Below are positions 36,853-64,000 of a stretch of DNA of 64,000 nucleotides, in pieces (the first letter of the stretch is position 1; every line of letters starts with the position of its first letter). The stretch is from Porphyra umbilicalis. Its lineage: Eukaryota > Rhodophyta > Bangiophyceae > Bangiales > Bangiaceae. The notes below the pieces were generated by a model that saw only the letters and a program-made list of their open reading frames with translations, had not been told where the DNA came from and did not search any database. The position numbers and the translations under genes are program-made. The DNA is taken from positions 310,001 through 374,000 of the forward strand of contig KV918770.1 of the NCBI GenBank assembly GCA_002049455.2. The letters are read 5' to 3'.

Positions 36853-36854
36853 TT

Positions 36855-36873
36855 TGGTGGAGCAGCAGGGGAT
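36855..36873 (+). promoter_or_regulatory. Primer binding site
   Basis: Two bases after the LTR the sequence reads TGGTGGAGCAGCAGGGGAT, starting with the TGG expected to pair with a tRNA CCA end. The tRNA species was not identified; it is not the usual initiator-Met sequence. Confidence 0.6.
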
Positions 36874-38729: not shown

Positions 38730-38758
38730 GCCGGGTGCCCGACTTGGGGTTGCCCGGC
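38717..38758 (+). promoter_or_regulatory. Predicted -1 ribosomal frameshift signal between gag and pol
   Basis: In the gag frame the last codons are TCG AAA AAC GTC TAG. The heptamer G AAA AAC (38717-38723) fits the X XXY YYZ layout except that its first base differs from the next two. A -1 slip there enters the pol frame, which is open from 38669. After a 6-base spacer, GCCGGG (38730-38735) can pair with CCCGGC (38753-38758), with more pairing inside the loop. Confidence 0.6.
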
Positions 38759-44747: not shown

Positions 44748-45354
44748 CCCTACTCAACCTTGCCGTTAGGCCTCAACCTGTGCGCGAGCACGATGACACG
44801 GGATGGCCCCGTGCCGACAAACGGAGACCCGCACAAGACACGGTGGTAACCGGCCGCAGGGTACGCACCCCCCCCCCCCCCCCCCCCTTCCCCTCGGCAA
44901 CAAGCACCCGCGTCCCGGCTTTCGCCTTCTCGCCGGGGTAGTCAAACCCCGACGAAGCTGGCGCCACACGGCACCGACGATGGCCACCCCAGCACGTGCT
45001 GCTCGACGCGCCGCCGCGAACATGGGTCTTAACCCTGGCACCCGCGCCCGCCCCCGCACCAACGTACCCACACGCGTGGAACCGCCCGCGCCGGCACGCC
45101 TACGCGTAAGCGTCGAGCTGACCCGCAGATCAACCTGCCCGCCACGCAAGCACGCGCGTGCGTGATCGGACGGTCGCGGCCGACGCCGGCGAACCGCCAC
45201 TTCCCCCCAATCGGGACTGAGCGGCGCGCCCCTTCGCGACTCCCGCCGCCCGGGCAGTTACGCCCGCGCGCGCCCGTAAGAGTCCGCGATTGCCCAATCG
45301 GGTTCCACCATTCTCGGATCTCACCGGGACGGTTCGAATCTCGCGTTGGAGGTA

Positions 45355-45746
45355 TGTAGCATATTTCTGCTCCCAATTGGCAATTAGCCACGAGTAGCCC
45401 CCTTGACTGGCTGAATCCACGGATTTGTGTGACTCGGCTTGTGGCACGCCCTTTGGGGGGTTACTTCCGCATTGTTTATTTTTATTGCTTGTTTGCTTGC
45501 CTGTCTTATCTGTCTGCCGGCACTCATTACGATCGCTTGATCGGATGGTCGATCGACCAGTGCCGTTGTTTGTATTAAACCACCGTGGGTCCGGGGTCGC
45601 CGTCGTGGGCACCACCCGGCTCCCCATCGGATGCCCTCCAACAAAAGGTCTTCTTCCTCGCCGCGACGGCGATAGAACTCGCTTTATTGCTTGGCTACGG
45701 TCGGTCTCAGTACACTGGTAATTGAACTAACGTTATTAATACCACA
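45355..45746 (+). repeat. LTR B (middle LTR), 392 bp
   Basis: Starts TGTAGCATATT, ends AATACCACA. It has six substitutions and one T deletion relative to LTR A. On its left it shares with LTR C the pre-LTR sequence CGCGTTGGAGGTA, so it stands in 3'-LTR context. On its right it is joined directly to reverse-transcriptase coding sequence, with no primer binding site. Confidence 0.95.
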
Positions 45747-48700
45747 GATATTATCCTCCGGGGTTTGAAGTGGCAGATATGCCTCGTCTACTTAGACGAT
45801 GTCATCATCTTCTCCGCAAACGCGGAACAACACGTCAAAGACGTTGACACGGTTCTTCACCGTCTCCGTGAAGCCGGGGTCACCCTCAACTTGGAAAAGT
45901 GTACGTGGTTCTCCGATGAGGTCGAGTACCTAGGACACATTGTCCGCCCCGGGCAACTGCGCGTGCACAACAAGAACGTGGATGCTCTGAAGCATGCCAA
46001 GTTCCCAACCACAAAGACCCAGCTGAAAAGCTTCATGGGAATGTGCAACGTCTATCGACGGTTTGTCCAAGACTTTGCCAAATGAGCAAAGCCCCTGAAC
46101 GCCCTGACTAGGGCCGAGATCCCACCGGATTTACCACCACCGACGGACGTGGCTATCGCCGCCTTCGAGGACCTTCGCAACGCACTGTTGTGCCCACCGG
46201 TACTTGCCTTGCCGAAGGCCAACCGGAAGCTCGTCGTTGACGTGGACGCCTGCGCCGACCAAGTTGGTTGTACCCTCCTCCAAGAGGAGCCGGGCGAACT
46301 GCTTCACCCTGTCGGGTATTGGAGCCGAGATCTCACTGCTGCAGAGCAAAACTACTCCACCACGGAGCGAGAATGCCTCGGCGTTGTGTGGGCTGTCCTC
46401 AAGTTGAGGCACTTCCTCGACGGACAACGCTTCCTCATCCGAACGGATCACCAAGCACTTAGCTGGATCTACAGCACGACCGACTCAAGCGGACGCTTGA
46501 TGCGATGGCGACTTCGCCTCTCCGAATATACATTCGATATGGTTTATAAACCAGGTGCATCTCACCACTTGCCCGACTTCCTGTCGCGCGCCTCTACGGT
46601 GGCGCCGCCAGAAGATATCCATGATGATATACCTTGTCTGGCATTGGCCGAGACGGCCAACGGCTTAAGAACGGGGAGGTACACGGGTACCGACACACCG
46701 GAACCGGTGGAGTTTGACGACGTTGTCGAAGCACAACAAACAGACGACTTCTGCGTCGAGATGTCCACTCGCGTGGAGCGCGGAACGGCCAAGGCCTTCT
46801 TCCGCGATGAGCATCACGCTCTGTACCGCCGTGCGCCTTACGGCAAACAATTGGTTATTCCAAAGTCGCTACGCGAACGCGTGTTGACCCTCGAGCACCA
46901 CGCAACCGTGGCCGCCCATCCTGGTATGAACCGGATGTATTACACCATGCGCAAGGCATACTACTGGCCTTCAATGGTGACGGATATTCATTCGACCATC
47001 ACCAAATGCACAACGTGTGCGCAAAACCGCCTCGCCTTGCGGCGACACACCACGCCCCTGACCCTGTTCCAGGCTACCGAGCCTCTCACGGAGCTATCCG
47101 TTGACATCTTTGGGCCCATCCCGGCCTCCAAGAAGGGCAACCGCTTCATCTTGGTTATCACCGACCGCTTCGCCAAGCTCACCAAGTGCGTCGCCTTGCG
47201 GCGAATCACGGCTTTGTCAGTGGCGGCAGCCATCATCGACGCGTGGGTGTCAGCCTACGGGCCACCGGACCGAATCCTATCGGACCAAGGGCCCCAGTTC
47301 ATGTCGAACTTCTTCATCGCTGTGATGAAAATGCTTGGCATTGAAACGGTTCGCACCACGGCGTATCATCCCCAAACCAATGGGCAAGTTGAACGGTACA
47401 ACCGTACCATGGCTACGCAGCTGCGACACTACGTCGCCGACGACCCATCACGATGGGATGAGCTACTCCCGGTAATCACCATGGCGTATAATAGCCAACC
47501 ACATCGGTCGACGGGCATCGCCCCATTTGAGCTTGTTATCTCAAGGCGGATCCCCAACCTCACGGTTCGCAACTTGCCCCCGGGCACTCCGCTTACCAAT
47601 AAGGGAAAGCTCAAGGATGGGTCACCCCTAGCTCGCAAGCGCGAGTTCATGGCCCGCCTGCGCAAGCAGATCCCCATCGTGGTCGAGGCCTTGCGTAAGA
47701 CGCAACAACGTTACAAACGTAACTTCGACCATCGGGTCGCAACCCGCAATGCGGACGTCAAGATCGGCGACTACGTATACACGACCAACCACGATCGGCA
47801 AAACAAGCTGCAAAGCAAAGCCATTGGACCCTTCGTGGTCGTCGACGCGGACGTGGACGCCTCCACGTTTGTCATTGACATTGACGGCGAGGAGAAACGC
47901 GTCAGCAGTGACCATGTCACCCCCGCTCCTCGTCCAACGACGACGGACAAGGTTCCACACCCCTTGCTAGATGGTCTAGACCAACGCAAGTCAACCCCGG
48001 CAACTGCCGATGAGTATGTGATCGACAAACTCCTAGGCTTACGCCAGACGGGTGACAGCTATAGCGCTAAGGTGCGCTGGTTCGACTACGGGTCGAAAGA
48101 CGACACCTGGGAACCCCTGGAGAACCTCCCCCGCAACCTGGTGGTGCGTTTCCTTCGACAGAAGAAGAAGCATGTACCGGGGTACGAGTGGCAAACGCCA
48201 ACGCGACGAAGTCGCCGACAGGCCGGGCTCACAACCGTGGCCAACATCGTCATGGACTCCACGTGGATACCCACTATCCAACATGTCCATGTTACCGGTG
48301 ACGGAGTTATCCATGCCGATGTCTCTTGGACAGAGTCAAGTACCAATGTTGCAATTAAGGAAGTAATTCCTGTGGCGTGGCTCAAGTCCACTCTGCTGTC
48401 CATGACGCGCAACTTTGCGTATGACACCCATCGTGCCTTGCGGCATTTCTCTCGGCTGAACCGTGTTTACGGCCCGTACACATATGTGTGGCCGAAATCC
48501 GCACAGGCGACACTCATCGGGAGCGATCCCCCCGTACCAGTGCTCCCCAACGGGTTTCTGGTACCTCCGGTGCAACACTTGGACTCAGTCCTTGGAAGCT
48601 TGGTAACAACCACAGAAGAAGCAACCGTGGTAATACCACAATGGACCAACGCCAGTTGGTACGCTACTTCCATACGTGCATGTTTCGAGTACGAAGTGCT

Positions 48701-48794
48701 TTTATCAGCAGACTCAAGGGATACAAATCCCACAACAGGGGCCATGATGGCCTGCCACTTCCTTCATCGCTATGACGATAAACAGAAAAACTGA
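45747..48794 (+). pseudogene. pol: 5'-deleted pol of the second internal copy
   Basis: The sequence right after LTR B equals the first copy from 40151 (GATATTATCC), inside reverse transcriptase just before YLDD. About 3.3 kb (PBS, gag, protease, start of RT) is missing. The rest is nearly identical to 40151-43186. CGA in the first copy is TGA here at 46083-46085, a stop consistent with CpG deamination. Downstream the frame is open from 46149 to 48794 through RNase H, integrase and chromodomain. It cannot make a full Pol and must depend on another copy. Confidence 0.92.
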
Positions 48795-48936
48795 GAAGTG
48801 GATACGAACATGTCAAACGACAAACAACAACAAGACGAAGAAACATCAACACCCTAAAAAGGCGTAAGACCCCGACATTGTCAACCCCACCCCCCCACCG
48901 GGGTCAACCGAGCAAGTCACTGAGCAGTGAACCTCG

Positions 48937-51249
48937 CTACTCCTCGTCGTCACGACGACGCGAGTCCCGACGGGAATCGCGGCTCGCGCCAACACTGGCC
49001 GCCGACTCCTGCGAGACACTACGCGCACGCGTGTTGCGCGCCGAGTGCGGAACCCCCGTCGACGGGCCTCCGCCCTCGTGGGTCTGACGAGCAAGGATGC
49101 TCTGCGCGTTGAAGCGCGCCGGCGCGGCCTCCTCCTCTGGCTGTATAGCCTCGAGGTGCTGGGCGAAGCGCCCGTAGTTGGCCTCGCCGTCAACGGCGCG
49201 AGCCACGGCATGTCCAATAATGGACAAAGCCGACTCGACACCCCGTCCGTCCGCGCGCTCAACAGCGGTACGCAAGCCTGCGATCTGCTCGACCCAGGCG
49301 CTAGCCACCGCCGACAAGGCTGCCCCGCGGGGCGCGCGAACGCGTACATCGCGCGCGCGCGCCGACCCAAACAAGGCAACCGCCGCGGTTGACGACGCGC
49401 GGGTCGGCCAAGTGGCATCCACCGACCGTGGCGGAGAGGGCGAGCGATCGCGCCGCGGTGAACGCGGGCGGTGGCGGCCCTCGCGGGCGTCGCCAACGGC
49501 GTGAGCCCAGGTCCGACGACCACGACGCCACACCCCGCGATGGTTCGAAGTAATTCGAGCCATCGGGAGTGGCGCGTTCGGGTCCAACGCCCAGTCGAAA
49601 TCGACACAAGGGTGGCGCAGGCAAAAGCCGTATTCCTTGGTCGGGTCGACCGTGACCCGCACCTGCCGGGCTTCCCCGGAGTCGCGGTCGCGCCAGACGA
49701 CGTCCTTAAGGACCTCCCGCCAGGGAAACGCCGTCACGGCTTGACGCATCTTGCCGTACAAGACGTACTTGGCCTCGCCGTCGGGCGCGTCCTTCAACTT
49801 GGACGTATCCAACGCGTCGAAATGACGAAGCGTCTTCGTGTCCAAGTGGACGAAGAGCTCGTCCTCCTGCAGGGTGTGAACCCACGCAGCAACTAAGTTG
49901 CAGTAGTACTCGGAGTACACCTCCTGCCAGACGGAGCTGTAGGCGTTGCGCAACGCGTCCGCCATGTAGGACACCACCACGGGGGTCGCCACCCACAACC
50001 CCGTGTGGGGCTCCCAGTCCGGGATAGGCGGAAGCCAACGGGACAAGTCGAACGCCCGTGGCGCACGGAGAAATACAGCCGCCCACGCGGTAGGCATCAA
50101 CTCGCGACCGCGAAAGAAGCGCGTGTCAGCGGCCCGACGGTGGTCGGATGGGAACATCGGCAGCCGAAAGGGGTTCGGCAACCCGGTGACCCGCGGACTG
50201 CGGTCATCTTCGACATTGTCGTTCTCCTCGTGCTTCACCAGCGCAAGCTGCTCGAGGTACGGCTCCAGACCGGAGTCGTGCCCGAACGGGACCGAAAGGT
50301 CCTCGGCGAGAGCCCTCTTGAGGAAGACGGCCTTCGGCCAGTTGCGCAGCAAGCGACAAAACGAGTTGGCCGCTGCCTCGATCGACTCTGTACCCTTCAC
50401 AGGGAACATAAGCGCATTGGCGTACACCAAGCGGTGGAACGGGTGCAACGGCAGTTGGTACCGCACGACCTCGTTGCAAAACGACATCACCTCGTATACA
50501 CGACGCTGAGGTCCCTGGTTCCCGAAGTACGGGTCCCCATGGACCTCGGCCACGCGGTCGCCCGCGTGGTCCGGCAACCCGGCTTGCGCCATCACGTCGA
50601 TGAAGTCGGGCAACGCCTCGTAGTGAGCGTAAACACGGCGCGTGTGCGCACGAGCGCGATTGCGTACGCACATCTCGTACAGACGGTTGTCGGTGACCCG
50701 CGGGACCCCATCGACCACCTCTACAGGGTTGGCGTGCACGTAGTACGAGCCGCGAGGCCGAAACTGGCGCAAGACCTCTGGGTCCGCGGAGCAATCCACT
50801 TCCGGATGGCCACCCGCGGCGGCATGCGCCCCGTCGATGGCCTCACCGCCACCGGCAACGCCGACGTCCACCGCCATCGCGGCGGAATCCGCCATCGCGT
50901 TGGCCGTCCGGGGGGTGTTTACCCTGGCCGTCGCCGCCGGGCTGGCCGCGCTTGCCGCCCTTGCCGCCGTCGCCGCCGGGCTGGCCGCGCTTGCCGCCCT
51001 TGCCGCCGTCGCCGCCGGGCTGGCCGCGCTTGCCGCCCTTGCCGCCGTCGCCGCCGGGATGGCCGCGCTTGCCGCCCTTGCCGCCGTCGCCGCCGGGCTG
51101 GCCGCGCTTGCCGCCCTTGCCGCCGCGCTCGCCGCCCTTGCCGCCGGGCTTGCCGCCTTGCCGCCGTGCGCGCCGCCCCCCCCCACTCCGCGCAAACCCA
51201 CACTCACCGGGCCCAACACCTCGCGGTGTGCCACCTTGCGGCGACGCAC
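48937..51249 (-). CDS. Antisense-strand protein of the Ty3 element (family A), unknown function
   Basis: A long frame on the strand opposite gag/pol, between the pol 3' end (143 bp away, convergent) and the 3' LTR. The open frame is 770 codons; ATG 50895 gives 652 residues and is my preferred start. The N-terminal extension is a 13-residue Ala-rich repeat encoded by 39-bp units. The core is globular and unlike any family I know (VRNRARAHTRRVYAHYEALP, SFCRLLRNWPKAVFLKRAL, RGRELMPTAWAAVFLR, WVATPVVVSY, FPWREVLKDVVW). An Arg/Ser-rich segment (RRDRSPSPPRS) and a charged tail end it. Ordered motifs recur in the antisense frame of the other Ty3 family at 55933-58908. Antisense genes are known in some LTR elements (maize Grande, HTLV-1 HBZ). 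Confidence 0.72.
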   Translation of the reverse strand: MRRRKVAHREVLGPVSVGLRGVGGGGAHGGKAASPAARAASAAARAASAASPAATAARAASAAIPAATAARAASAASPAATAARAASAASPAATAARAASAASPAATARVNTPRTANAMADSAAMAVDVGVAGGGEAIDGAHAAAGGHPEVDCSADPEVLRQFRPRGSYYVHANPVEVVDGVPRVTDNRLYEMCVRNRARAHTRRVYAHYEALPDFIDVMAQAGLPDHAGDRVAEVHGDPYFGNQGPQRRVYEVMSFCNEVVRYQLPLHPFHRLVYANALMFPVKGTESIEAAANSFCRLLRNWPKAVFLKRALAEDLSVPFGHDSGLEPYLEQLALVKHEENDNVEDDRSPRVTGLPNPFRLPMFPSDHRRAADTRFFRGRELMPTAWAAVFLRAPRAFDLSRWLPPIPDWEPHTGLWVATPVVVSYMADALRNAYSSVWQEVYSEYYCNLVAAWVHTLQEDELFVHLDTKTLRHFDALDTSKLKDAPDGEAKYVLYGKMRQAVTAFPWREVLKDVVWRDRDSGEARQVRVTVDPTKEYGFCLRHPCVDFDWALDPNAPLPMARITSNHRGVWRRGRRTWAHAVGDAREGRHRPRSPRRDRSPSPPRSVDATWPTRASSTAAVALFGSARARDVRVRAPRGAALSAVASAWVEQIAGLRTAVERADGRGVESALSIIGHAVARAVDGEANYGRFAQHLEAIQPEEEAAPARFNAQSILARQTHEGGGPSTGVPHSARNTRARSVSQESAASVGASRDSRRDSRRRDDEE
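50939..51133. repeat. 39-bp tandem repeat, 5 units
   Basis: Five units of 39 bp (CTGGCCGCGCTTGCCGCCCT within each). Thirty-nine is divisible by three; in the antisense frame each encodes ATAARAASAASPA or a variant. It lies upstream of the preferred ATG of the antisense gene. Confidence 0.9.
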
Positions 51250-51950
51250 CCCTACTCAACCTTGCCGTTAGGCAGCGACCTGTGCACGAGCACGAAGACA
51301 CGGGATGGCCCCGTGCCGATAACAACGCGGACCCGCACCCCGGCTTCCGCCGTGTCGTCGGGGGAGTCAACACCCCGACGAGGGCGGCGCCTGCCGTCAC
51401 GACGACAACCAGCTGGTGCTACCCCGCGCGCCCGACTCGGTGCTAACCGGCCTGGAGGTGTGAACCCCACACCCACGCTCGGCACCACGGACCCGCGTCC
51501 CGGCTTTCGCCGTGTCGTCGGGGTAGTCAAACCCCCGACGAAGGAGGCGCCACTCGGCGCCGACGACGGTTGTCCCAACGCGTTTTGCACGACGCACCCG
51601 CGCACCAACGGGTCTTAACCCCGACGCTGGTCGCCTGTCAACCGGCCGTTTGGCCACCACGCCGACGCCGACGCCGACTCCCCTGCGAGGGCGCGTGTAC
51701 GCGCAAGCGCCGGTCGGATCCGCAGCGTCAGCTGCCCGCCACCCACGCCCACGCGTGTGTGGCGGGACGGTCGCGACCGACGACGGCGAACCGCCACCTC
51801 CCCCCAATCGGGACTGAGCGGCGCGCCCCCCACGGCTCCCACCGCCTGGGCGGTTGCGCCCGCGCGGGCCCGTAAGGGGCCGCGATCGCCCAATCGGGTT
51901 TCACCATCCTCTGATCTCACCGGGACGGTTCGAATCTCGCGTTGGAGGTA

Positions 51951-52343
51951 TGTAGCATATCTCTGCTACCAATTGGCAATTAGCCACGAGTAGCCCCCTT
52001 GACTGGCCGAATCCGCGGATGTGTGTGACTCGGCTTGTGGCACGCCCTTTGGGGGGTTCCTTCCGCATTGTTTATTTTTTATTGCTTGTTTGCTTGCCTG
52101 TTTTATCTGTCTGACGGCACTCATTACGATCGCTTGATCGGATGGTCGATCGACCAGTGCCGTTGTTTGTATTAAACCACCGTGGGTCCGGGATCGCCGT
52201 CGTGGGCACCACCCGGCTCCCCATCGGATGCCCTCCAACAAAAGGTCTTCTTCCTCGCCGCGACGGCGATAGAACTCGCTTTATTGCTTGGCTACGGTCG
52301 GTCTCAGTACACTGGTAATTGAACTAACGTTATTAATACCACA
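51951..52343 (+). repeat. LTR C (3' LTR), 393 bp
   Basis: Starts TGTAGCATATC, ends AATACCACA, and is followed by GGGGGG. Three substitutions from LTR A. Preceded by CGCGTTGGAGGTA, a weak polypurine tract. The region 51250-51950 between it and the antisense frame holds no other gene I can support. Confidence 0.95.
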
Positions 52344-52348
52344 GGGGG

Positions 52349-52659
52349 GATCTCCTCCCCCCCCCGGCTTTGGCGATGGCAACGATGGAGGGCGGCCGCA
52401 TCGACTTAAGCGGCCGCGGTCCGTCTATGGTCGCGACCGTGAACGTGGCGACCCTGAGGACCCCGACCAACAACGGCGCGCGATTCGACCCCGCGGAGCT
52501 TGGGACCTGGACGGTGGGCATCGTGCCCCCCCTGACCCGGTGCGCCGACCTCTCCCTCCTGGCGGTGGACGCGGCCGGCCGCCTTTCAGCCCTCCTCGAC
52601 GCCCACCCGGTCTCCCGTCTGGCCCGCCACGCCCGCCGCCGAGGCGTTTTGACAAGTAG
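52349..52659 (+). pseudogene. 3' part of the split reading frame
   Basis: This continues, in phase, the frame interrupted at 36459. It begins SPPPPGFGDGNDGGRPHRLK after the target duplication, passes a charged segment (YGRDRERGDPEDPDQQRRA) and Pro/Arg-rich sequence, and ends at TAG 52657-52659. Confidence 0.5.
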
Positions 52660-52740
52660 ATCCTTGTAAACTTTTAGCAGCTTTTACATACTTAAACAGC
52701 TGCTTTTCGCTTAGTCCATAGATAAAGCGCAGTTTCTGTT

Positions 52741-53058
52741 TTCCCTGGCCTTTAGGACAGGGTGCTCTCAAAGTGTAGTGATGCACACATATACTTAGAG
52801 AATGGGACTTGATCTCCGTTTCAGAGGTGGCAGTCTGCATTCGTGTCCTCAGGGATCTGAGGGCGTGTCAGCGTTGGAAGGGTCGCGATGACGCTAAAAA
52901 GCGAATAGAGTTACGTGGCTGAGAAGGACTCTCCTGCCACAAGGGCCACAGGGCCCGGACGGCGTCTGCCCCTCTGCCCCCCCCACCGCCCCGAGTTGCG
53001 CACGGCAACCGCGCGCAGCGACTTTCGAGGTTCGACGCGCCCACGATAACCCGCGGGT
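52741..53058. repeat. 316-bp direct repeat, left copy
   Basis: Starts TTCCCTGGCCTTTAGGACAG and ends near CCCGCGGGT. It matches 55340-55656 in the same orientation with scattered substitutions. Ends are not TG...CA, so it is not an obvious LTR. No coding content recognised. Confidence 0.9.
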
Positions 53059-53664
53059 GATCGTGCCTGCGCGCCGTCTTCTGTTGCGGCGGCGCGTCGG
53101 CGGTTGCTGAAGCCACCTAGCGGCGCGGTTGGATGCGCCCCATCGCGCGGCGATCAGTCCCACCCGCCTGGCCGTGCGCCGTGTCGGCCTCCCTGCCCGC
53201 CGTGCGCAGGTGCGCTGCGCGGCGGAGTGACGCCCCTTCTGTGGGCGTCGCGCGACGCCGGCGGACCGCCGCCGCTGCTGAGGCGGCGGCGGCATCCCTT
53301 TCTTCGCCCCACATTCTCCCCGCCACGGCAGCGTGGCTGTACGTGCCCCCGTGCGCGCTCGCGGCTATGGAGCCGACCGGCATGCCCGGTGTCGATGCGT
53401 CGCCGAGCGCGCCACCGCCCTGAAGGCCAGGGTATTGCACGCACGTGCCTGGAATTTTCTTCTAATCGCACAGCATATTCTGATGGTTTTCATGGTTTTT
53501 GACCGTGCTCTCCTGGAGGGTACGGTCATTTTATTGCTTTCCTACTCGGTTCTGGTAAATCGCCTGGTCTAAGAGAAATGCGCAGTCGTGGTCCTCTGTA
53601 TCTAGACATAATATATGAATTCTCCTAGCATAAATAAATCAAAAAGCATTCATCAAAAAGTAGC

Positions 53665-53720
53665 TATTTAATGAAAATATTTTACAAAAAAGCATTTTAG
53701 TAAAATATCTTCATTAAATA
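53665..53720. repeat. 21-bp hairpin next to the tRNA
   Basis: Arms 53665-53685 and 53700-53720 (TATTTAATGAA...ATATTTTAC) are inverted with one mismatch around a 14-base loop. AT-rich hairpins beside tRNA genes are common in organelle genomes. Confidence 0.8.
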
Positions 53721-53757
53721 CTTAAATGAAGATGAATGAATATTTTCAATACTTTGA

Positions 53758-53827
53758 GCGGGTAGCGGGAACCGAACCCACATCATGAGCTTGAAAGGCT
53801 AAGCACATACCACTAAACCATACCCGC
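53758..53827 (-). tRNA. Organelle/bacterial-type tRNA, Gly backbone with Glu anticodon (UUC), probable pseudogene
   Basis: Seventy nucleotides fold as a tRNA: the acceptor GCGGGTA pairs perfectly with TACCCGC, and a five-pair T stem (one G-U) encloses TTCGGTT. The anticodon loop is CTTTCAA with TTC at 53795-53793. The backbone (AGCC...CAAGCT, ATGATG, GGGTTCG) is that of bacterial/organelle tRNA-Gly(UCC), whose loop would be CTTCCAA; one C-to-T change gives UUC. The T loop lacks the normal A58 and one anticodon-stem pair is broken, so it is probably decayed. Confidence 0.7.
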
Positions 53828-54187
53828 ACTATTCAATAGTTGCTATTTCATTGAATGTAGCGCAATTTTACGATGTTTGTGGCATGAAATAGATTATGCA
53901 CTCTCCAGACCCACATCAAGAAAACGAGCAATTTCGGCAATAGTATTTTTTCAAAAGATGCCAATACTGAGAAAATGTCATAGGATTGTATGAGTTTTTC
54001 AATTTGCTCATTTGCTTTCAAACCTCAGAATCAGCCTGATGCTTAACCTGAAAAAGCAGGAGGAAATATTATATAACCCAAAAAAATGTGCCATGATATC
54101 AATACTAGTATTACAATGCTGTTTACAAATGTAGTAAAATCATTACGTGAAGTACTAAGCTGTGTACATGAGCAATAGCAAAATAAT

Positions 54188-54817
54188 ATGGTGCGTGTCC
54201 CAAAAATGAGACATCGCGGTTTTTTCTTTTTTTCTCGGCCCACTGGCCTTCTGCAACGGTCCGATAATGTAATGTGACCCACTCGGTCCCACTGTGCTGC
54301 CAGAACGGCCCCTGACAGTGTTTGCAGAGGCGGCACCTCCTGACGTGACATGGGGGAAAGTGTCATTCATTGCAGCTTCGACAGGTGACGATCACGCGCC
54401 CCAATCAAATGCACGGATACTAGAGCAGGCATGTGCTGACAGTTCGTGCACGAAGAAAAGGGCACGACCTTACCAATAAAAACGTGAAAAAGACCCCCAT
54501 GTAGCCCCTTGTGAGGAAAACACGATTTGGGACACCCCTCATCGAAGCTCCAGTTAGCACATGAGCTTTGGCGTTGTAAATCTTTAACCCAAAGAACCTG
54601 AAAAAGACTGGCTCCAAGATCGGGGCTAACTGAGAGGTCCACAGAACAGGGCCCACAGGCGGGTATTAAGGAGTTGTCAGCCAAGCACGCGTCAGGAGAG
54701 GCTCTTTCCATGGAGGCCCGTACAGAAATTTCTCGTACCTCACGCCGCATGCCCCCGTGCAGTGATGTGTCAGTCCTTCAGAAAACGCGCATGTCTCATT
54801 TTTGGGACACGCACCAT
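54188..54817. mobile_element. MITE with perfect 27-bp terminal inverted repeats
   Basis: 54188-54214 and 54791-54817 are perfect inverted repeats (ATGGTGCGTGTCCC...). Taking TGGTGC as the tip, both sides carry TA, the target duplication of Tc1/mariner elements. The roughly 630-bp body has no recognisable transposase, so it is non-autonomous. It sits inside the AT-rich island. Confidence 0.85.
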
Positions 54818-55114
54818 AATCCACAGAATATCATGGCAAACTTTGTTAAGCCTCTTAATGATAATCTTTTTGTATGTAATGTTTTTACGCAGGTTAGAAC
54901 ATCAAATTTCAGTAAGAGAATATGAGGTAATACTGGCCTATCGGCGAGGCTTATCTCCGTTTCTGAGAGGTCTGGTGATAGGTATGGCGAAGGTCATTTT
55001 TTAATTGGACCCGTTAATAAATTATGGCCCACCAGAGGCACAGATGTGGCTTCGCATAATTACTATCGGCTAATATTTCAGTCGTACAAACAGCAGGTCT
55101 GTGTTTACTCTCTG

Positions 55115-55176
55115 AAGCTAGGAAATGGACTTGAACCCGTAACCTACTGAGTCCAAAACAGTGGCTCTACCAACTA
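55115..55176 (-). pseudogene. tRNA-like remnant, possibly Pro (UGG)
   Basis: The minus strand has a good D-arm (CTAGTTGGTAGAGC) and B-box (GGGTTCAAGTCC). The anticodon arm ACTGT...TCAGT has one mismatch around TTTGGAC, which would give UGG. No acceptor stem forms, so this is a decayed or truncated copy. Confidence 0.4.
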
Positions 55177-55339
55177 GCAAAAACAAAGAATAAATGAAAA
55201 AGATCTTTAACGCAATCTGACTTTTCAGATTTTTGAGGCATGTTTTGTGTTTGGAAAAAATAAATCACCTAATATAAGAAAATACTAATTGGGATTTTTT
55301 TAATCTAAATCTTCAAAAAATTCTTGATCACATTCCAAA

Positions 55340-55656
55340 TTCCCTGGCCTTTAGGACAGGGTGCTCTCAAAGTGTAGTGATGCACACATATGCTTAGATC
55401 AAGGGACTTGCTCTCCGTTTCAGAGGTGGCAGTCTGCATTCGTGTCCTCAGGGATTTGAGGGCGTGTCAGTGTTGGAAGGGTCGCGATGACGCTGAAAGC
55501 GAATAGAGTTACGTGGCTGAGAAGGACTGTCCTGCCACAGGGGTCACTGGACCCGGACGGCGCCTGCCCCCGTGTCTCCTCTACTGCCCCGAGTTGGGCG
55601 TGGTGACAGCACGCAACGACTTCGGGGGCTTGACGCGCCCACGATGACCCGCGGGT
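55340..55656. repeat. 316-bp direct repeat, right copy
   Basis: Second copy, 2.28 kb after the first. Homology stops at GCGGGT, exactly where TGTAGTACCACA begins at 55657. That suggests the minus-strand Ty3 element inserted into this repeat. GATGACGCTGAAAGC and CTGAGAAGG occur in both copies. Confidence 0.9.
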
Positions 55657-55932
55657 TGTAGTACCACAATCTAGGGGGTTACCTCAGAAGGAGGGAAGTA
55701 ACGGCCGTCTCAGCCGCTCGCGCGACACCCGCTATGGGACTCGAGGTCCGGGAAGTCGGGCCGATCGAAACGCCAAGACATCGAGACACGGTTTACTTGC
55801 CGGCGACGACGGTGCCTCCCACCGTCGTCGCCCTTCGTCCTAAAAGGGCGGAAACCGTCGCCCGGGCCCAAATTCCCCAAATGGGAATTGACCCGGGCCG
55901 TCACCAACCAATGCAGATAATTCCCTCCATGC

Positions 55933-58908
55933 ATGTCAAGTCCCCCGAGGCGATCATTACAGACGAGGGGGAGAAACCGTCCCGCGCGCAACGCGCTGCA
56001 CCCGCCGCGTGGCGCCCGGTCGGCCGTCGCCTGCCGCGCCCTCTCGGGCGCGCCAGCGCCCGCTCGGGCGCGCCAACCCGGCCTCCCGCGGGGCCCGCGT
56101 GCCGGGCGCGGCGGATCGGGTGCGCTCCCTCAAGGGGCCCGAGCCGGGCAGCGGGGCCGTCCCCTCGCCCCGCCATCCCGCGTCGCCAACCCGTCGGCCA
56201 CCACCGCCGCTGGCGTCGCCCCCACGCGTCGGGGACCGACGTCCCCCGCCGTCGCCGTCGTCCCCGCGGTGGCCCCCTGGCGCCTAGGGGGGCCCCGTAG
56301 TACTACATCCCCTTCGGCTGAGATGGAGCCGTCCCCGGCGACGCCTCCCGATAGCCCCGTCGGGGCTCCGTCCCCCGCGCCCCTGGCGTGCCCGCCCCCG
56401 GTGGCCGCCGCCCCGGGGCCGGCGCCGTCGGCCGTCGCGCCGCCCGCGTCGGGACCGCCCGGGCGCCGCCCAACCGTCCCCGCCCGCCCGTCGGTGCCGC
56501 CGGGTATGCGGTTCCCGTACGACCCGAACGGCCGGGAGTGGCGGAAGCCGCCCCGCCCAGTGGGCGCCGCCACCGCGACCAGCGCCGGGGCCGGGTCCGC
56601 GGCTTGCCCGGCGGCCGCCCCCGGCGGGGGCCCCGCGGTCGTGCCGGAGGAGCGACCGCCGTTGTTGGGGCAGTCGGCCCCCGCGCTCCCGCCGCGCCCG
56701 GCGCCGCCCGACGTCCGAGCGTGGCTTGCTCCGCTGGGGCCGGTCGTGGCCTCGGCCGACTGGCCGCTCGTCAGTGACGTCTTCCTCCCGGCTCATCCCC
56801 ACGACGCCGGCGAGGCCGCTGCCGTGTGGCGGGCCTTCAAGGAGTTCGCCAAGGTGGCGGGGTACGGCACCCGGCCGGCGGCCGAGCGCGACTTTGCTTC
56901 CTTCGTCCGCTCCGTCGGGGACAGCGCGGCGTGGCTACGCTGCATGTTGCGGTGCAACCCGGGTCGGGTGCTCTTGGTCCCGCATCCCGCGGCCGAGCTC
57001 CCGTTCGTCGCCGGCGAGGAGGAGTACGCCTACCTCGAGGATTGGCACACCCGCCTTCGCCACCGCCCTGCGGTCCCGTTCGGTCACTCCATGGCGCTCG
57101 CCAACTTCGGGGGTGTGGGCCCCCTGATCGCCTTGGCGTCGGTGGGCCCCGCGACCGCCCCGGCGGACTTGGCGTTGGAGGCCGCGCGCCGCGCGCGCGG
57201 CGAGCTCGTAAGCGCCCGACGGGCGGGGCACGGGGCCATCTTCCTGTCCGTCCGCTCCGGCATCGCCTTGACGCCGGCGCGTGCTCCCTTGCCGCCGGCA
57301 ATGGCCACGCGGTGCGCGACGCCGCGGCTGCTGACGTACGAGTACCCGCCCGTCGTGCACCAGCAGCAGTCGCTGCTTCAGGCGTTCCCGTGCCACCCTA
57401 TCCAGGGCACGGCCTACGTCATGCTGACGGCCGCCATCGTGTCGGGGTTGCTGCGTGCATACCGCGAGACGCACCGCGTCTTCGAGCCGTCGCCGTGCTA
57501 CTACGACTTGACGCGGAAGTTCAAGGTCGACGACCTCGCGCCGGGCGACAGCGGTGCCGCCGACGCCCTTGAGGAGTACGATGCCATCGTGAGGGCTGTG
57601 CCCTGGGCGGCAGTCCATGACCTGCTGCCCTACCACCACGACACCACTCGTCAAGCCCCCAGCACCCTGCTGCCCCACCAAGTGGGTACTGTGGCGGACG
57701 GCCGGTGCCACTACGTTCGCGTCGTGAACGTCTTGCGGACGCCGCAGACCCCGTTGGGGGTCATGCTCGCGGAGCCGCGGCTCGCGGACGTCGCCCCGCG
57801 GGCGTTGCCCGTGACGACGGAGCCTTGGGCGATACCGGCCGGCTTCACTTCGCCCGACCCGGACGCCGTCCCGCCGTCGACGGGGGAGGCGGCCGCGTCG
57901 GCCGCGTACCGCGCGCGGAAGCGGCGCCACGCCGACATGGCGCGCGGCGGCCCGGCTCCGCCTGTACCCCACCACCCGGGGCCCCGATACCCCGAGGGGG
58001 AGGAGGAGGAGGTCAGCGCCGGCGACCCCGGGGGTCCCGACGCCTACTCCCGCGGCTTCTCCTCGTCGACCCGTGTCGGCAATGCCGAGTGGGGCCCGCG
58101 AGAGGCGGGCCGCGAGGACCGAGCCGGCACGGCTCATGGCGAGCGCTGGGACGCGACGTGGCGCGGCGACCGCGCCGACACTGCCGGTGACCGGCCCGGG
58201 CGCGGGTGGGCGTCCGAGTCGGGCGGCGGCGCCGCTGCCCCCCGTCGCGACCACGACGACCGCTGGGGGGACGGCGGCCACGGCCGCCGTGCCGACGTGC
58301 GGGACGACCGCGTGTGGTCGGCGGCCGGTCAGGGTGACGGCCGCGGCTGTATGGCCGACGGCCGTGACGGGCTCGCGTGGCCCTCCGACGGCGGCCAGGG
58401 CCGCGACGGCGCCGCTAGCGGCTGGGGCTACGGGCGGTCCGAGTACCGCCCCGCCGGCGAAGCCGCGGCGCCCGCCGGTCCGCGCCCCGCGCGTTGGGAT
58501 GCCGCCCCCGCCAACGACGGTCCCGGCGGGGCGCCGATGGAGCTCGGGGTTGCCGGTCCCATCATGACCCCCGTTCCGGGGCAACCGGACGTCGCCTACG
58601 ATTGGTGGCTGTCCGCGTCGTGGACGCCCCCTACCCCGGTGACGGCCACGGAGTGGCGGGACGCGCTGACGTCCGGGCAGGTTGTCGCCTTGTTCGGGTA
58701 CGACCCGTCCATCAACTGGTCCGAGGTGGGGCCGTGCGAGATCACCGCCGCGATGGTCGAGTACGCCCGCATCGGGCTCGCCGCCGACGTCCCCCCCTGC
58801 CTGGAGCCCCCGCGGACGCGGGCGAAGCGGTTCCACGCCGCCCTGCGGCGCGTCCTACGCAAGGCGGGTCGCCCCGTTCACGTATGGGAGTTTCGTCGCC
58901 GCGACTGA
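55933..58908 (+). CDS. Antisense-strand protein of the second Ty3 element (family B), unknown function
   Basis: 991 residues from ATG 55933; an in-frame ATG at 56323 (MEPSPATPPD) would give 861 and may be the true start. It is opposite in strand to pol and ends 211 bp from the integrase stop, tail to tail. The N-terminal third is Pro/Ala-rich. The middle core shares ordered motifs with the family-A antisense protein: RGELVSARRAGHGAIFLS, RCATPRLLTYEY, YYDLTRKFKVDDL and AVPWAAVHDLLPY, with nearly the same spacing. Then comes a Gly/Asp/Arg-rich, RGG-like region and a charged globular tail (ALFGYDPSINWSEVGPCEIT, then FHAALRRVLRKAG). No known domain. No internal stop despite damage in the neighbouring pol. 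Confidence 0.72.
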   Translation: MSSPPRRSLQTRGRNRPARNALHPPRGARSAVACRALSGAPAPARARQPGLPRGPRAGRGGSGALPQGARAGQRGRPLAPPSRVANPSATTAAGVAPTRRGPTSPAVAVVPAVAPWRLGGPRSTTSPSAEMEPSPATPPDSPVGAPSPAPLACPPPVAAAPGPAPSAVAPPASGPPGRRPTVPARPSVPPGMRFPYDPNGREWRKPPRPVGAATATSAGAGSAACPAAAPGGGPAVVPEERPPLLGQSAPALPPRPAPPDVRAWLAPLGPVVASADWPLVSDVFLPAHPHDAGEAAAVWRAFKEFAKVAGYGTRPAAERDFASFVRSVGDSAAWLRCMLRCNPGRVLLVPHPAAELPFVAGEEEYAYLEDWHTRLRHRPAVPFGHSMALANFGGVGPLIALASVGPATAPADLALEAARRARGELVSARRAGHGAIFLSVRSGIALTPARAPLPPAMATRCATPRLLTYEYPPVVHQQQSLLQAFPCHPIQGTAYVMLTAAIVSGLLRAYRETHRVFEPSPCYYDLTRKFKVDDLAPGDSGAADALEEYDAIVRAVPWAAVHDLLPYHHDTTRQAPSTLLPHQVGTVADGRCHYVRVVNVLRTPQTPLGVMLAEPRLADVAPRALPVTTEPWAIPAGFTSPDPDAVPPSTGEAAASAAYRARKRRHADMARGGPAPPVPHHPGPRYPEGEEEEVSAGDPGGPDAYSRGFSSSTRVGNAEWGPREAGREDRAGTAHGERWDATWRGDRADTAGDRPGRGWASESGGGAAAPRRDHDDRWGDGGHGRRADVRDDRVWSAAGQGDGRGCMADGRDGLAWPSDGGQGRDGAASGWGYGRSEYRPAGEAAAPAGPRPARWDAAPANDGPGGAPMELGVAGPIMTPVPGQPDVAYDWWLSASWTPPTPVTATEWRDALTSGQVVALFGYDPSINWSEVGPCEITAAMVEYARIGLAADVPPCLEPPRTRAKRFHAALRRVLRKAGRPVHVWEFRRRD

Positions 58909-59118
58909 GGGCATCGCCCTGGCCCCGTAGGTGTGGCGCTTAGTCCGACGGCGTTCGGTCGTCTTCCGCCGTAGAATAAAGCCGTGGGCTTGTCCTTAGT
59001 CCCACTTAGCGTCCGCGGCCCGTTGTGGCCCCGCCACGTCTTGGCATAGTCCCCCAAAAACCCCAGAAAAACCCATTCCCCCCCCCGCCGCGCCCGGCCA
59101 CCGCGCCTACCCAAGGGG

Positions 59119-60468
59119 TCAGGCACGCATGGCCGGGGGCGGCGCGGCGGCGCCGCCCGAGGCGGCGCCGCCGTCGGGAGCCGAGGCTTGCGGGGCCGCC
59201 GGCGGCGGGTCGGCGGACGTGTGGGGCAGCCCCAGGCGCGCGGCGCGGCGCAGGTAGACGCGCAGCGTCTCGTGCGGGGCGTCCGTGGCGTCCAGCCAGG
59301 TGGGCAGCGGGTATCCGGTCCAGTAGACCTGGACCCGGAGGGTGCCGTCGGGCAGCGTCGCGTGGTCCGCGATGCGGTCCACGGCATACCGCTGGCCGTC
59401 GGCCTCCGCCCCGTGGAAGGAGCGCGCGGCCCGCAACGCGGGGTGTTGGGCAGGGGATTCGGCGGCCGTGCCCGAGGCGCGGACGACGTGCGCCACGTTC
59501 TCCCGTCGGTGCTCCCCGTCCACGTCCAGGAGGACCGTCGGGCCGTCCGTGGAAACCACGCGATACGGTCCGCGGGCGACGTGCGTCAGTTTGCCGCCGG
59601 CGCCCTCCTCCTTGGCGTGGGCACGCAGCCACGCGCAGCCCCCCACGGTGAGCTTCTCCGCGCGCAGCGCGAGGCGCTTGTCGTGGTCGCGCTTGTAGCG
59701 CCCCTGCGTGGCCTTTAGCGTTGCCCGCATCTGCGGGATGAGCTGAACGAGGCGGGTCAGCAGGGAGGCTTGGGCGCGCTTCTCGGCGGCGGTGCCGCGT
59801 TGCGCCGTGATGAGGTACGCCCCGGACTTCGGGATGTCCTTGAAAGCCCAGCTGGATACCCCCATGGGGTCGACCAGTTCCAGCGGGGCAACCCCGGTGC
59901 TACGGTGGGGGCGGCTGTTGTACGCCAGCGTCAGGGCCCCAAGGAGTTGGTCCCAGGACCGCGGATGCTCCGCCACGTAGTGGTTTAGGATCGTATGCAT
60001 CGTGCGGTTGAACCGCTCCGTCTGCCCGTTCGTCTGCGGGTGTGACGGTGACGTCACCTTAGGCTCGATGGAGAGCAGGTTGCAAACCTGGCCCCAGAAG
60101 TGGCTGGTGAACTGGGGTCCCCCGTCCGAGAGCAGCCGGTCCGGCGGACCATAAGCGCCCACCCAGTAGTCCAGGACGGCCGAGGCGCAGTCCACCGCCG
60201 ACGTACCGTCCATCGGGATGGCGCGCACCAGCTTGGTGAACCGGTCGGTGATCACCAGGATGAATCGATGGCCGGCGGCCGTTCGGTCGAGGGGCCCGTA
60301 GAGGTCCACAGCAATGTCCTGGAAGGGCATGGTGGCGGGGAACAGGGTCAGGGGCGAGCGCCGTGCCAGCGGGCGCACGCGCTGCCGGGCACAGCTGTCG
60401 CATTTCCTAACATAGGAGACGACGTCGGCCGCCATGCCCACCCAGTAGTAGTACCGCCGCATCGCCGC
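59119..60468 (-). pseudogene. pol: Integrase with chromodomain-like end, family B
   Basis: This segment follows an in-frame TAA (60469-60471) that cuts the zinc-binding N terminus. It holds YYYWVGMAADVV, CDSCARQRV (second zinc pair) and the catalytic core VDLYGPL, LSDGGPQF and GQTERFNRT. The C-terminal region ends with a chromodomain-like stretch (YAVDRIADH, VQVYWTGYPLPTWLDA). The core is well conserved, so the breaks are recent. Confidence 0.85.
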
Positions 60469-60471
60469 TTA

Positions 60472-60958
60472 CATGCGGGATTCCCCGGGGTGCCCGGCGA
60501 GGGTCGCGTCGTGCTCCAGGTGGAGGACCTGCTCCTGCAAGGAGGTCGGGACTACCACCTGGTGGGCGCCATCGGGCGCCGCGCGTCGCCGGAGGACCTA
60601 GTCGGGATCCTCGAAGAACGGGATGCGCCGCCCGTCATTCAGGGCTTTCACGATCTCCTTGCAGTACCCGTCGTCGGCTTGGGCCGAGAGCACCGCGTCG
60701 CGGTTGATGCCCCGGACCGTTGGGCCGCCAACGTAGTTGGCGGCGTCGAGCCCCCGGACCGTGTTGGCTCGCACAGCGAAGACAGGGACCGCGTCGTCGA
60801 ACGCGGTCTCATCGCTGGCCCCGGACTCCAGGCGGGAGATGCTGTCGGCCATGAAGTGTGTCATCCCCGGCTTGTAGGCGACGTCAAACTCCAACTCGCT
60901 GAGGCGAAGGCGCCAGCGCGCCAAGCGGGGATTCCCCGAACCCTTAATGTAGGATCCA
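60472..60958 (-). pseudogene. pol: End of RNase H and integrase zinc finger, family B, with in-frame stop
   Basis: After the frameshift, the next frame continues RNase H (LARWRLRLSELEFDVAYKPG, FMADSISRL). TAG at 60598-60600 interrupts it. The same frame beyond the stop reads VVVPTSLQEQVLHLEHDATL then AGHPG, the integrase zinc finger, before TAA at 60469-60471. Confidence 0.85.
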
Positions 60959-63663
60959 CCGTAGGCAGTCGTGGTCCGTGCGCACAAGGAAACGATCACC
61001 CTCGAGGTAGGGGCGGAGCTTGAGCGACGCCCAGACGACTGCCAGGCACTCCTTCTCCGTGACCCCGTAGGGGAGCTCGTTCGTTGCCAGCCGCCGGCTG
61101 ATGTACGCGACCGGCTTGAGTTTCCCGTCGTCTTGCTCCTGCAGCAGGGCGGCGCCCACCTGCGTCCCGCAGGCATCTACGTCGAGGACGTACTTCCGCC
61201 CGCGCCGCGGGAGTGCGAGGACCGGCGGGGTCGTGAGGGCCTCCTTGAGCCGGTCGAACGCCTGCTGCTGCAATGGCGTGGCAGGGGGCACCAGGACGGG
61301 GGCCGTGGACCCCATGAGGTCCGTCAATGGCGCTGCCATCCTTGCGAAGTTCGGCACGAACCGGCGGAAGACCTTCCACATCCCCACGAAGCTCCGCACT
61401 TGCGTGCGGGTCGTGGGGAAGTGCGCCTCGCGCAAGGCGCGCGTGTGCGCGTCCATCACACCGAGCCGGCCCGGCTTGATTTCATGCCCGAGGTATTCCA
61501 CGGTCTTTCGAAAGAACCGGCACTTGGGCAGGCGGAGTGTCACTCCCGCGTCGCGAAGCAGGCGCAGAACGCGGTCGACGTGGCCGACGTGCTCCTCCTC
61601 CGTCTTGGAGTACACGATGACATCGTCGAGGTAGATAAGGCAGCTTTGCCACTTCACGCCGGAGAGGATGATGTCCAGCGCCCGCTGGAACGTGGCCGGG
61701 GCGTTCGTTAGGCCGAACGGCATCCGTTTGTACTGGTACGCGCCCTCGTGGCACACGAAAGCCGTCTTCTCCCGATCTTCGGGTGCGATGGCAACCTGCC
61801 AGTAGCCGGCGTTGCAATCCAACGTCGAGAAGATGGTCGCCTCACCGAGGCTGTCGATGCATTCGTCCATTCGGGGCAGCGGGTACGAATCCTTCTTGGT
61901 GACGACGTTCAGCAGTCGATAATCGACGCAGAAGCGGAGGGTGCCATCCTTCTTGGGGACGAGCACGACCGGGAAGCCCCATTCCGACGACGTCGGTTCG
62001 ATGACGTCCGCCTCCAGCTGCCGCTTGACCTCGGCCGTCTCGGCCTCCCGCGCCGTGTGCCCAGCGCGGCGCGGTGCGAAGCGGACGGGCCGGGCGCCGG
62101 CGTTGAGGTCGATGCGGTGCTGGGTGGCTTTGATGACGCCGAGCGCCTGGCCCGTCCACATTGCCTTGTGCTGGTCCAGCATGCGGCGGATCCGGGTGTG
62201 CAGCGTCGGGTCGACGTCCGGCAGGTCCACGTCCTCCACTTGCGGGGGGGACGCGGGTGGCGCCGCGTTCGCCAGGGCGCTTTCTTCGCCCGGGTCCCGG
62301 GGTCGCGCGGGGGTCGCAGCCGTACCACCTGAGGCCGTCGCTGGGTCCGGGCTCCGCCCCGGCGCGGGGTCGTCTCCGGTGCTTGACACCGCCGCCACGA
62401 CGCCTTCGGCGGCCGTGGCCGGCGGGAAGGCCGGGGCGGCCGGTGTACCGGGAGGTGCCCCGGGGGGCACTTGTACGACCCCTGTCGTCAGCAGCTCGAC
62501 GTAGCCGACGTTGGCCTTCTGCCGGAGGATGACCTCGCGCGCGCCAAAGTTGGTCACGATGACCGGGAAAGATAGCCCCGGCACGATATCGTGTACGCCG
62601 TTGGCGATGGTGACCCCGTGCGTTGTGAAGAGGCGCGAGGCGCCGAACACCTGACCCAGGCCGCCCCACATGGTCCGCACCCAGACGACCGTGGCCGCCG
62701 ACGGCGGAAGCCGCGTCTTGTGCGTCGCACGGAGGACGCAGGAGACGCCCATCGAGCGGTCGCCATCGTCCAACGGTCCCCGTAGGATCGCCGTGACGGA
62801 CCCGTCCGTCCAACGGATGGACCTATCCTGAGGCAGGATGGCGTGGGCGTTGTCGTCGATGAACGTGCAGCCCAAGATGACCGGGACCGACAGGTCGTCG
62901 ACGACGAGGAAGGGGACCGGGATGATCCGTGCGCCCGTCTGGAGCCACAGCGTGACGGTCCCGCTAGTGCGTAACCGTGCGTTGTTGGCGTCTCGCAGAC
63001 GTACCTGTTCCTCCTCCTTAGAGGTGACCACCTGGCGGAGCCAGTCAGGAGCGAGAACGTCCCGGCGGACCAAGTTGGGGCCCGCCCCCGTGTCGACGAC
63101 GACGCCGAACGCGCAGGGGGACATCTTGTCCAGCCCCAGAGAGGCCACGATACGGTAGTTATGCAGGCTGAAGAGCAGCACTTCCCCGTTCCGGGGCGGG
63201 GTACCCGGCGCGTGCGTGGGGTCCGCGACGGCGGCGGCGTGCCGGAGAAAGCGGATACGTTCGCGCCGGGCGCGTCCCCCGAGGCGCCGCCGGGGCCCTG
63301 GCCCGGTGCGCGCCCCGTTGGCGGGTAGGCCCGCTGGGATACCATCCCCGCCACCCCACGGCCGGGGGTCGGAGTGGCCCAGAGCCAGGACCGACGCGGC
63401 GACCGGCGGAGACGAAGGGACGGCCTCAGCGGCCACCGGCGTCGCCGGGACGGGGCAGTGGTCCGGCTCGTCCGCCGTCGCGTGGCTGACCCCCCCGGGC
63501 CGCGCGAGGATGCGGGGGCAGAAGGCGGGCGCCGGCGGGAATCCCGCAGCGGCCCGCCGCTTGCGTACCTGGCGCAGGCGGGTCGCCGTGATGTAGCAGT
63601 GCCGGTGTGCCTTGAGACGGACGACGTCCGTGGGCAGCCCACTAAGGGGGCTGCCCCTTCCTC
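60944..63663 (-). pseudogene. pol: Protease, reverse transcriptase and RNase H of family B Pol
   Basis: The frame is open to 63727 upstream and is probably entered by -1 frameshift at 63664-63670. Counting from the GTG at 63727: protease DTG at 212-214 (VVDTGAGPNLVR), RT with STLDCNAGYWQVAI and YLDD at 699-702, RNase H with VLDVDACGTQVGAALL and FLVRTDHDCLRW. The frame ends at 60944 where RNase H should continue; the adjoining frame carries on near 60950, so one base is missing or extra. Confidence 0.88.
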
Positions 63664-63670
63664 GTTTCCC
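63632..63670 (-). promoter_or_regulatory. Predicted -1 ribosomal frameshift signal, family B
   Basis: Minus strand: the canonical slippery heptamer G GGA AAC (63670-63664) is in phase with the gag frame (CAG GGA AAC). Next is a 7-base spacer (63663-63657) and a perfect 9-bp stem, GGGCAGCCC with GGGCTGCCC (63656-63648 and 63640-63632), around a 7-base loop. A -1 slip leads into the protease/RT frame. Confidence 0.75.
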
Positions 63671-64000
63671 TGGGCGTGGCAGGGGTGGCCGTCCCCACGA
63701 CTCGCGCCGTCGGCGCCCGCGATGCACTCCTCGGAGGAGCTCTCCCCCTCGTCGCCCGCTACGTCCGGGTACGCCCGGTCATCCGTTTCCACGGCGTGGA
63801 CGAAGACAGCCGTGCCCGGCGGGACGGTCCCATGGTTGGCGCCGGTCGGCGGTACCGGTGGAACCGGCGGTCCCGTACCCAGGGGCAGGGGTGCCGGCGG
63901 AGCCGGTCCCCGCCCGTTACGGTGTGCCGCGACTGCTTCGCGCAGCGCGCGCCCGTGGGCCCGCACCTCGGGAGACTGGGCGGGGCACTCCCACACCCAG
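63664..64000 (-). CDS. gag: C-terminus of Gag, family B, runs off the right edge
   Basis: The frame entering from the right reads WVWECPAQSPEVRAHG, which looks like the last cysteine of a CCHC knuckle (H would be just outside the window). A Pro-rich linker and an acidic segment (GDEGESSSEECIAG) follow up to the slip site. The gag frame has no stop after the slip site until 62554, so the natural Gag end is unclear. Confidence 0.55.

Follow-up and report, generated by a model that had tools for sequence, protein, structure and literature searches.

Antisense genes are known from a few lineages of LTR retrotransposons. The antisense ORF of Grande is transcribed from a promoter of its own; HBZ, the antisense gene of HTLV-1, is transcribed from the 3' LTR and carries a bZIP domain. 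One kind of antisense ORF, defined by its position and strand between pol and the 3' LTR and by conservation like that of other element proteins, goes by the name aORF-3R; examples are found in Grande (gene23), RIRE2, Retand and PvRetro13, where the ORF is kept in most copies (PMC7264820, in the sections on these elements). The same sections mention an antisense aORF in Boty of Botrytis cinerea, and give no antisense gene a determined role. HBZ and the related antisense genes of deltaretroviruses are mentioned both there and in the relevant part of PMC11963269.

Here we describe a further case, from a red alga. In a 64,000-nucleotide stretch of Porphyra umbilicalis DNA—the window, to which our coordinates refer unless a locus is named—an earlier note had picked out a long frame opposite pol in each of two Ty3/gypsy families, A and B; a third family, C, was found among matches to the B protein in the genome assembly. 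Our reading, to which we give a probability of roughly 0.82, is that these three families, all with a chromodomain, carry a second protein gene, which lies between pol and the 3' LTR, runs antisense to pol, and has a selected core and a variable tail, and we propose that its product has a nuclear accessory role. The layout itself is of a known kind; the protein family, the red-algal host and the chromodomain setting appear to be new as far as the open-access literature shows.

The elements and their antisense genes

Family A occupies positions 36460–52343. Its sequence opens with TGTAGCA and closes with CCACA, and it is flanked on either side by GGGGG, a low-complexity target-site duplication; because of these ends and flanks, we read it as one composite insertion. 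Its three LTRs, of 393 bp, lie at 36460–36852, 45355–45746 and 51951–52343, the last (plus strand) being the 3' LTR of the insertion and 98–99% identical to the other two. The first of the two units holds gag (37083–38729, plus strand), pol (38735–43186) and the antisense gene only as a remnant (43207–43405, minus strand, 72% identical to 50635–50834). The second holds the 3' part of pol, from mid-RT onward, and a complete antisense gene. This 3' part (45747–48794, plus strand) comprises the end of RT, RNase H, integrase, the chromodomain and a C-terminal extension, with Pfam matches on 46149–48791; it is 98.4% identical to 40151–43209. Family A contains a 3060-bp direct repeat of pol. As a whole (LTR, gag-pol unit, LTR, pol-antisense, LTR), the insertion resembles a product of recombination between copies. 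Gag A, which is separate from the antisense gene, has a zinc knuckle (E 5e-6) and a Retrotrans_gag match below the cut-off (E 7e-4); pol A matches RVT_1, RNase H, H2C2, rve and Chromo (E 4e-6), as well as RVP, below the cut-off (E 0.014). GC-rich tandem repeats lie between pol and the 3' LTR of A, at 43400–44750 and 50888–51183.

The pol of family B (59119–63727, minus strand) is broken into several frames, as the frame map and Pfam matches on two separate pieces indicate. RT, RNase H and integrase are recognized in these two pieces; the Chromo match is weak (E 0.32), and the region concerned is 57.5% identical to pol C. The 3' LTR of B, also on the minus strand, extends from 55657 to about 55914. 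Its outer edge is apparent from 26 of the 29 other copies, which start aligning at 55653–55659; its inner edge was placed by eye, from the TG..CA ends and a polypurine tract. One element edge has been seen for B, and one for C. B is inserted in the second member of a repeat pair, 52741–53067 and 55340–55665, 89% alike, the first of which represents the empty, unfilled site. The rve matches of both pol A and pol B are weaker than the last of the 150 integrase matches listed. By sequence, families A, B and C would be classed as Ty3/gypsy LTR retrotransposons with a chromodomain, C from its pol end alone. The pols of A and B are as divergent as the earlier note had supposed: 43% identical over 755 aligned positions in PR-RT-RNase H, and 37% over 412 in integrase.

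The antisense genes are arranged tail-to-tail with pol, as had been described, with stop-to-stop differences of 143 (A) and 211 (B), equivalent to 142 and 210 intervening bases. Position and strand, between pol and the 3' LTR, are those of an aORF-3R. Among 30 A loci, the pol end lies opposite the antisense gene in 29, the exception (L017) being cut by the end of its contig, and an LTR is present in all 30; among 30 B loci, the pol end is present in 21 and the LTR edge in 28.

Other parts of the window include a transposase-like gene (Plant_tran, DDE_Tnp_4; 18609–20468, minus strand) that runs into Ala-rich repeats; a hAT-like transposase gene (DUF659 and a dimerisation domain; 21661–24138, minus strand) open for 826 codons; and a likely host gene for a UAA-type nucleotide-sugar transporter (29908–31419, minus strand). 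In the assembly, one contig carries a phycobiliprotein gene set, with eight near full-length matches, and chlorophyll-binding proteins occur too; together with the high GC content of the window, these genes are what one would expect of a red alga.

Selection across copies and the limits of the genes

We searched an assembly of 83.8 Mb in 665 contigs. For the A core, the best 96 of 433 candidates were scored, a list in which more distant relatives of A could not show up; these matches are 86–100% identical, and in 64 of the 96 the core is without a stop. The B core has at least 114 matches, drawn from the best 111 of 163 candidates; among them are subfamilies at 60–75% identity and two matches at 33%. 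Thirty A and 30 B loci, window copies counted, were taken with 1.5-kb flanks. Variants seen in one copy, which we call private, were taken to have arisen mostly after insertion, and those shared by at least two copies to have been inherited mostly from active elements. Besides the window copies, the counts cover 29 loci of A and 21 of the 29 of B; L042, L043, L047, L049, L051, L053, L060 and L066 were dropped from the B counts for large gaps or many differences.

In both cores, shared variants are mostly synonymous. The A core has 6N:29S shared versus 93N:64S private (Fisher 9e-6), and the B core 14N:37S versus 154N:78S (Fisher 5e-7). With the observed mutation spectrum, the omega of shared variants is 0.09 for the A core and 0.15 for the B core. 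This is conservation like that of other element proteins, as in an aORF-3R: the C-terminal part of pol A has 12N:16S among shared variants, and constraint on the antisense core is thus no weaker. (The pol count rests on 26 loci and the window copy; L017 is without the region, and L010 and L011, with 149 differences each, are misaligned or divergent and were left out.) The comparison across copies that the earlier note had proposed thus comes out as it anticipated, and we conclude from these variants that the cores of both frames are under purifying selection, and that the genes are real.

The loci were picked as best protein matches, which biases against amino-acid changes, and the antisense protein itself was the query, so that the counts concern copies that have the gene. 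Such bias is unlikely to be the cause of the low omega, because it acts on private and shared variants alike, and because the 5' parts of the frames are neutral in the same loci. For A, it is unlikely also because a search by DNA (best 40 of 327 candidates) puts 28 members of the 29-locus set among its 39 top non-self matches. Of the other five frames, just one has a low omega too, 0.29 for A and 0.19 for B. That frame shares its wobble positions with the gene, and is interrupted by 12 stops in the A core and by 10 in the B core. Codon usage does not discriminate, since one reverse-strand control frame is as close to pol usage as the gene is.

Frame A is present where the earlier note placed it, opposite pol at 48937–51249 on the minus strand, 770 codons from a GTG in the ORF map, but it is too long at its 5' end. 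Omega changes from neutral to constrained at a start codon, the ATG of Met119 in that frame: residues 1–118 have 25N:10S shared variants, the neutral expectation (omega 0.99), and residues 119–583 have an omega of 0.15. The corrected gene occupies 48937–50895, minus strand, and encodes 652 aa, with a core at about residues 144–583 (numbered in the reported frame) followed by a tail containing Arg/Ser. Exactly 652 codons from Met119 are kept in 23 of the 30 copies, and in 21 of these 23 the last 12 residues are alike; of the other seven, six are broken early and one (L017) runs off the end of its contig. Indels tell the same story. In 29 copies there are two in the 1959-bp gene versus 89 in 1055 bp upstream, and three in 142 bp downstream; per kb per copy this is 0.035 in the gene versus 2.9 just upstream, some 80-fold rarer inside.

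What lies upstream of Met119 in the reported frame (50896–51249, minus strand) is in frame in the window copy but non-coding. It contains GC-rich tandem repeats and, across copies, many frameshifting indels, and a marker string close to the start first reported was found in frame, by exact match, in eight of 30 copies. The stretch upstream of the gene differs in length among copies, and the long frames there look non-coding. The GTG at 51249 is ruled out as the start of gene A by neutral N/S, by indels and by poor frame retention upstream of Met119. The A tail, outside the query, has an omega of 0.31 on 13 shared variants, which do not differ significantly from private ones (Fisher 0.55). At the gene ends of the loci examined, no poly(A) signal like AATAAA was seen after gene A.

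Frame B, too, is where it was reported (55933–58908, plus strand), and its 991 codons in the ORF map are open while pol B consists of several broken frames. Its extent has also to be revised. Shared variants in residues 1–130 are 19N:8S, as under neutrality (omega 1.07), and in many copies this 5' part (55933–56322, plus strand) is frameshifted; residues 131–266 have an omega of 0.41–0.45 on few variants, and residues 267–636 one of 0.15. The start is most likely Met131, with Met192 an alternative, which gives a gene of 861 aa at 56323–58908, plus strand, with its conserved core at about 56731–57840. From Met131, an open frame of exactly 861 codons occurs in ten of the 30 copies; from Met1, one of exactly 991 occurs in five. 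In the tail, outside the query, the signal of selection is weak (omega 0.58, Fisher 0.27; 0.73 for residues 701–870). An AATAAA at 58975–58980, plus strand, 66 nt past the stop codon, may serve the antisense transcript as its poly(A) signal; of the 30 B loci, seven gave an exact match to the gene end, and six of these seven keep it. It is because of these signals of selection, length and indels that we have moved the start codons of both genes.

In 200 dinucleotide shuffles, another comparison that the earlier note had suggested, no frame grew as long as either of those reported: 770 codons for A versus a maximum of 687, and 991 for B versus 878. In the interval 48795–50900, which holds the corrected gene A, the figures are 653 and 395.

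Relationships among the three antisense proteins

The two 33% matches to the B core are the loci L069 and L070 of family C. The antisense protein of C is 33% identical to that of B (E 3e-19), a sequence match that establishes the two as homologous. The loci are 98.4% identical over 2.9 kb, from a TGTAGCACAACC edge. L069 ends short of the region that faces pol, and the pol end is seen in L070 only, where the long antisense frame, ending at 7636, lies opposite a pol end whose stop is at 9620 and which is 57.5% identical to pol B over 80 aa (E 2e-21). Pfam finds Chromo in this pol end at E 4e-4, below the family cut-off. Between the antisense gene and pol of C, at L070:8048–9551, is a tandem array with an offset of about 115 bp from one copy to the next. 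The two copies differ by 21N:14S over the frame and 7N:9S in the core. A search with the C core finds more C copies, then the B family from E 9.5e-21 on, and no A copies among the 112 matches listed up to E 10 (best 111 of 129 candidates scored). Purifying selection on the A and B cores, together with a clear homologue of B in a divergent family of the same layout, bears out the idea of an old, selected antisense gene.

The earlier note had gone further, and held the A and B proteins to be homologous because of motifs shared in the same order. The motifs are present, and their spacings (117 and 267 nt in A, 114 and 288 nt in B) are close to those stated, but the pairs are non-significant by BLASTP or profile, and the homology is not established. 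That the two proteins are unrelated, and were gained separately, is a serious contender that falls a little short of an even chance. BLASTP of A against B gives E 0.67, and hhalign a probability of 2.6% (pair E 0.018), no significant profile-profile match. Hmmsearch places A among its own shuffles, and in a profile comparison with C alone, 19 of 100 permutations do as well as A itself. Single-sequence z-scores for A-B vary with the matrix and the shuffle used, lying between -0.1 and 3.05 (p 0.02–0.5), and the local z of 2.4 compares with 3.25 for B and a transposase-like frame, the best of 42 unrelated pairings with window proteins (2.12 semi-global). The A-B and A-C alignments agree with B-C only at a PW motif, the one motif consistent across A, B and C (8 of 262 positions, equalled by 23 of 200 shuffles), and the A-C alignment pairs the motifs differently in two of the earlier note's three pairs.

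Several observations pull the other way. The single-sequence z for A-C is 4.4–4.75 against full shuffles (Gumbel p 0.001–0.004) and 3.4–4.05 against local ones (p 0.004–0.009), above both unrelated maxima, whereas that for A-B is not above the local one. Against a B+C profile, with larger alignments, A has a probability of 1.5%, yet its score is reached by only one of 100 column permutations. The genes have a common place and orientation in their elements. And the chromodomains, at 48–57% identity for B-C, 26% for C-A and 20% for B-A, set against 33% for the antisense proteins of B and C, predict that an antisense relation between A and B would be near undetectable if it were as old as that of the pols. 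Homology of A and B is, from their sequences, possible.

A bolder reading, which we put forward tentatively and would not ourselves favor, is that one ancient antisense gene predates the split of these chromodomain Ty3 lineages and has been passed on together with pol throughout pol's own history. It would then be a second, oppositely transcribed core gene of an entire clade of Ty3 elements in red algae, with a new fold and without a plant or fungal counterpart, possibly controlling or protecting the element in the nucleus.

Nature of the protein and comparison with known systems

On our preferred reading, of a selected accessory gene in all three families, A, B and C each carry the antisense gene on the strand opposite pol, between pol and the 3' LTR; its transcription would run toward pol and start at a promoter in the 3' LTR or next to it. 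Its product (652 aa in A, about 861 aa in B) consists of a conserved core of some 370–440 residues and a variable, low-complexity tail. The tails differ: that of A has seven SR/RS dipeptides, that of B basic stretches, and that of C 13 RGG. The A, B and C cores have no Pfam match at E up to 10. Neither A nor the B+C profile has relatives among PDB sequences, where one weak match (E 0.31) is to a low-complexity part of A, or in IMG/VR. AlphaFold models are unusable (mean pLDDT 32 for the B+C core, 31 for the A core); such as they are, these low-confidence models are rich in helices.

Since Pfam and PDB searches found no catalytic motif, fold or domain in these proteins, their role is a matter of analogy. 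Published antisense genes are thought to be nuclear and regulatory (the parts of PMC7264820 and PMC11963269 that discuss them), and by that analogy we favor a nuclear accessory protein, one that would bind nucleic acid in serving its own element. We are less sure of this role than of the proposed promoter; possible targets are the element's RNA, its pre-integration complex or its transcription, in line with proposals for Grande gene23 and Retand TRP28.

It might, instead, be a second particle protein resembling a capsid or nucleocapsid. The helix-rich models would suit such a protein, and the 13 RGG of the C tail recall nucleic-acid-binding proteins, but family A owns a sense gag with a zinc knuckle, and neither Retrotrans_gag nor the zinc knuckle finds a match in the whole frames of A and B or in the A, B and C cores, so we think this unlikely. 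More doubtful is a host gene captured by an ancestor and kept because it helps host or element. Such capture is known for LTR elements (PMC7264820, in the part concerned), but the C-core search lists 112 matches up to E 10 (best 111 of 129 candidates), all of them B or C repeats, with no separate single-copy relative among them; for A, where the best 96 of 433 candidates were scored, a host relative is conceivable. A slimmer chance still is that antisense RNA, and not protein, is what matters, as a trigger of dsRNA responses or a block to pol expression. Tail-to-tail genes could yield overlapping RNAs, and roles of this sort are discussed in sections of PMC7264820. An RNA role alone gives no reason to expect, in one frame, a low omega and variation at third positions, although it may coexist with a protein role. 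Last and least, stop codons are AT-rich and GC-rich DNA yields long frames by chance, and the window (GC 0.664; 0.66–0.77 hereabouts) is full of long overlapping frames, but with the shuffles falling short, and with selection, exact length and scarcity of indels all mapping to a single frame and start codon, chance is refuted by the sequences for both cores and holds only upstream of Met119 (A) and Met131 (B).

The selected accessory gene that we prefer offers something in its own right. Copies within one genome show selection on the protein itself and give the limits of the gene, and since many intact copies exist in related families, function is now testable. The layout now extends to a red-algal host and to elements with a chromodomain, and we take this to suggest that Ty3 elements repeatedly gain or retain antisense accessory genes. 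We found none described in chromodomain-bearing elements of this kind in the open-access literature, where the statement to that effect in the earlier note goes uncontradicted.

Set beside HBZ of HTLV-1 and the related deltaretrovirus antisense genes, the genes here share an opposite-strand location in the 3' part of the element; the comparison is one of layout only, transcription from the 3' LTR or its vicinity being in our case a prediction, and no Pfam match to bZIP was found in the whole frames of A and B or in the A, B and C cores. Boty offers an antisense frame downstream of pol that, like these, is outside plants; it is fungal, it is compared here by description only, and the open-access literature gave us no chromodomain status for it. 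Closest are Grande, RIRE2, Retand and PvRetro13, from which the present elements differ in their red-algal host. In Retand, described as a non-chromovirus in the pertinent part of PMC11963269, the antisense protein TRP28 has PF04195; the pol genes here end in a chromodomain, and PF04195, like other Pfam families, has no match in the A, B and C cores at E up to 10. Retand has tandem repeats in the region that corresponds to those of A and C (same source), and with the whole set, as the relevant sections of PMC7264820 describe it, the red-algal families share the essential plan: an LTR element with one long, opposite-strand gene between pol and the 3' LTR.
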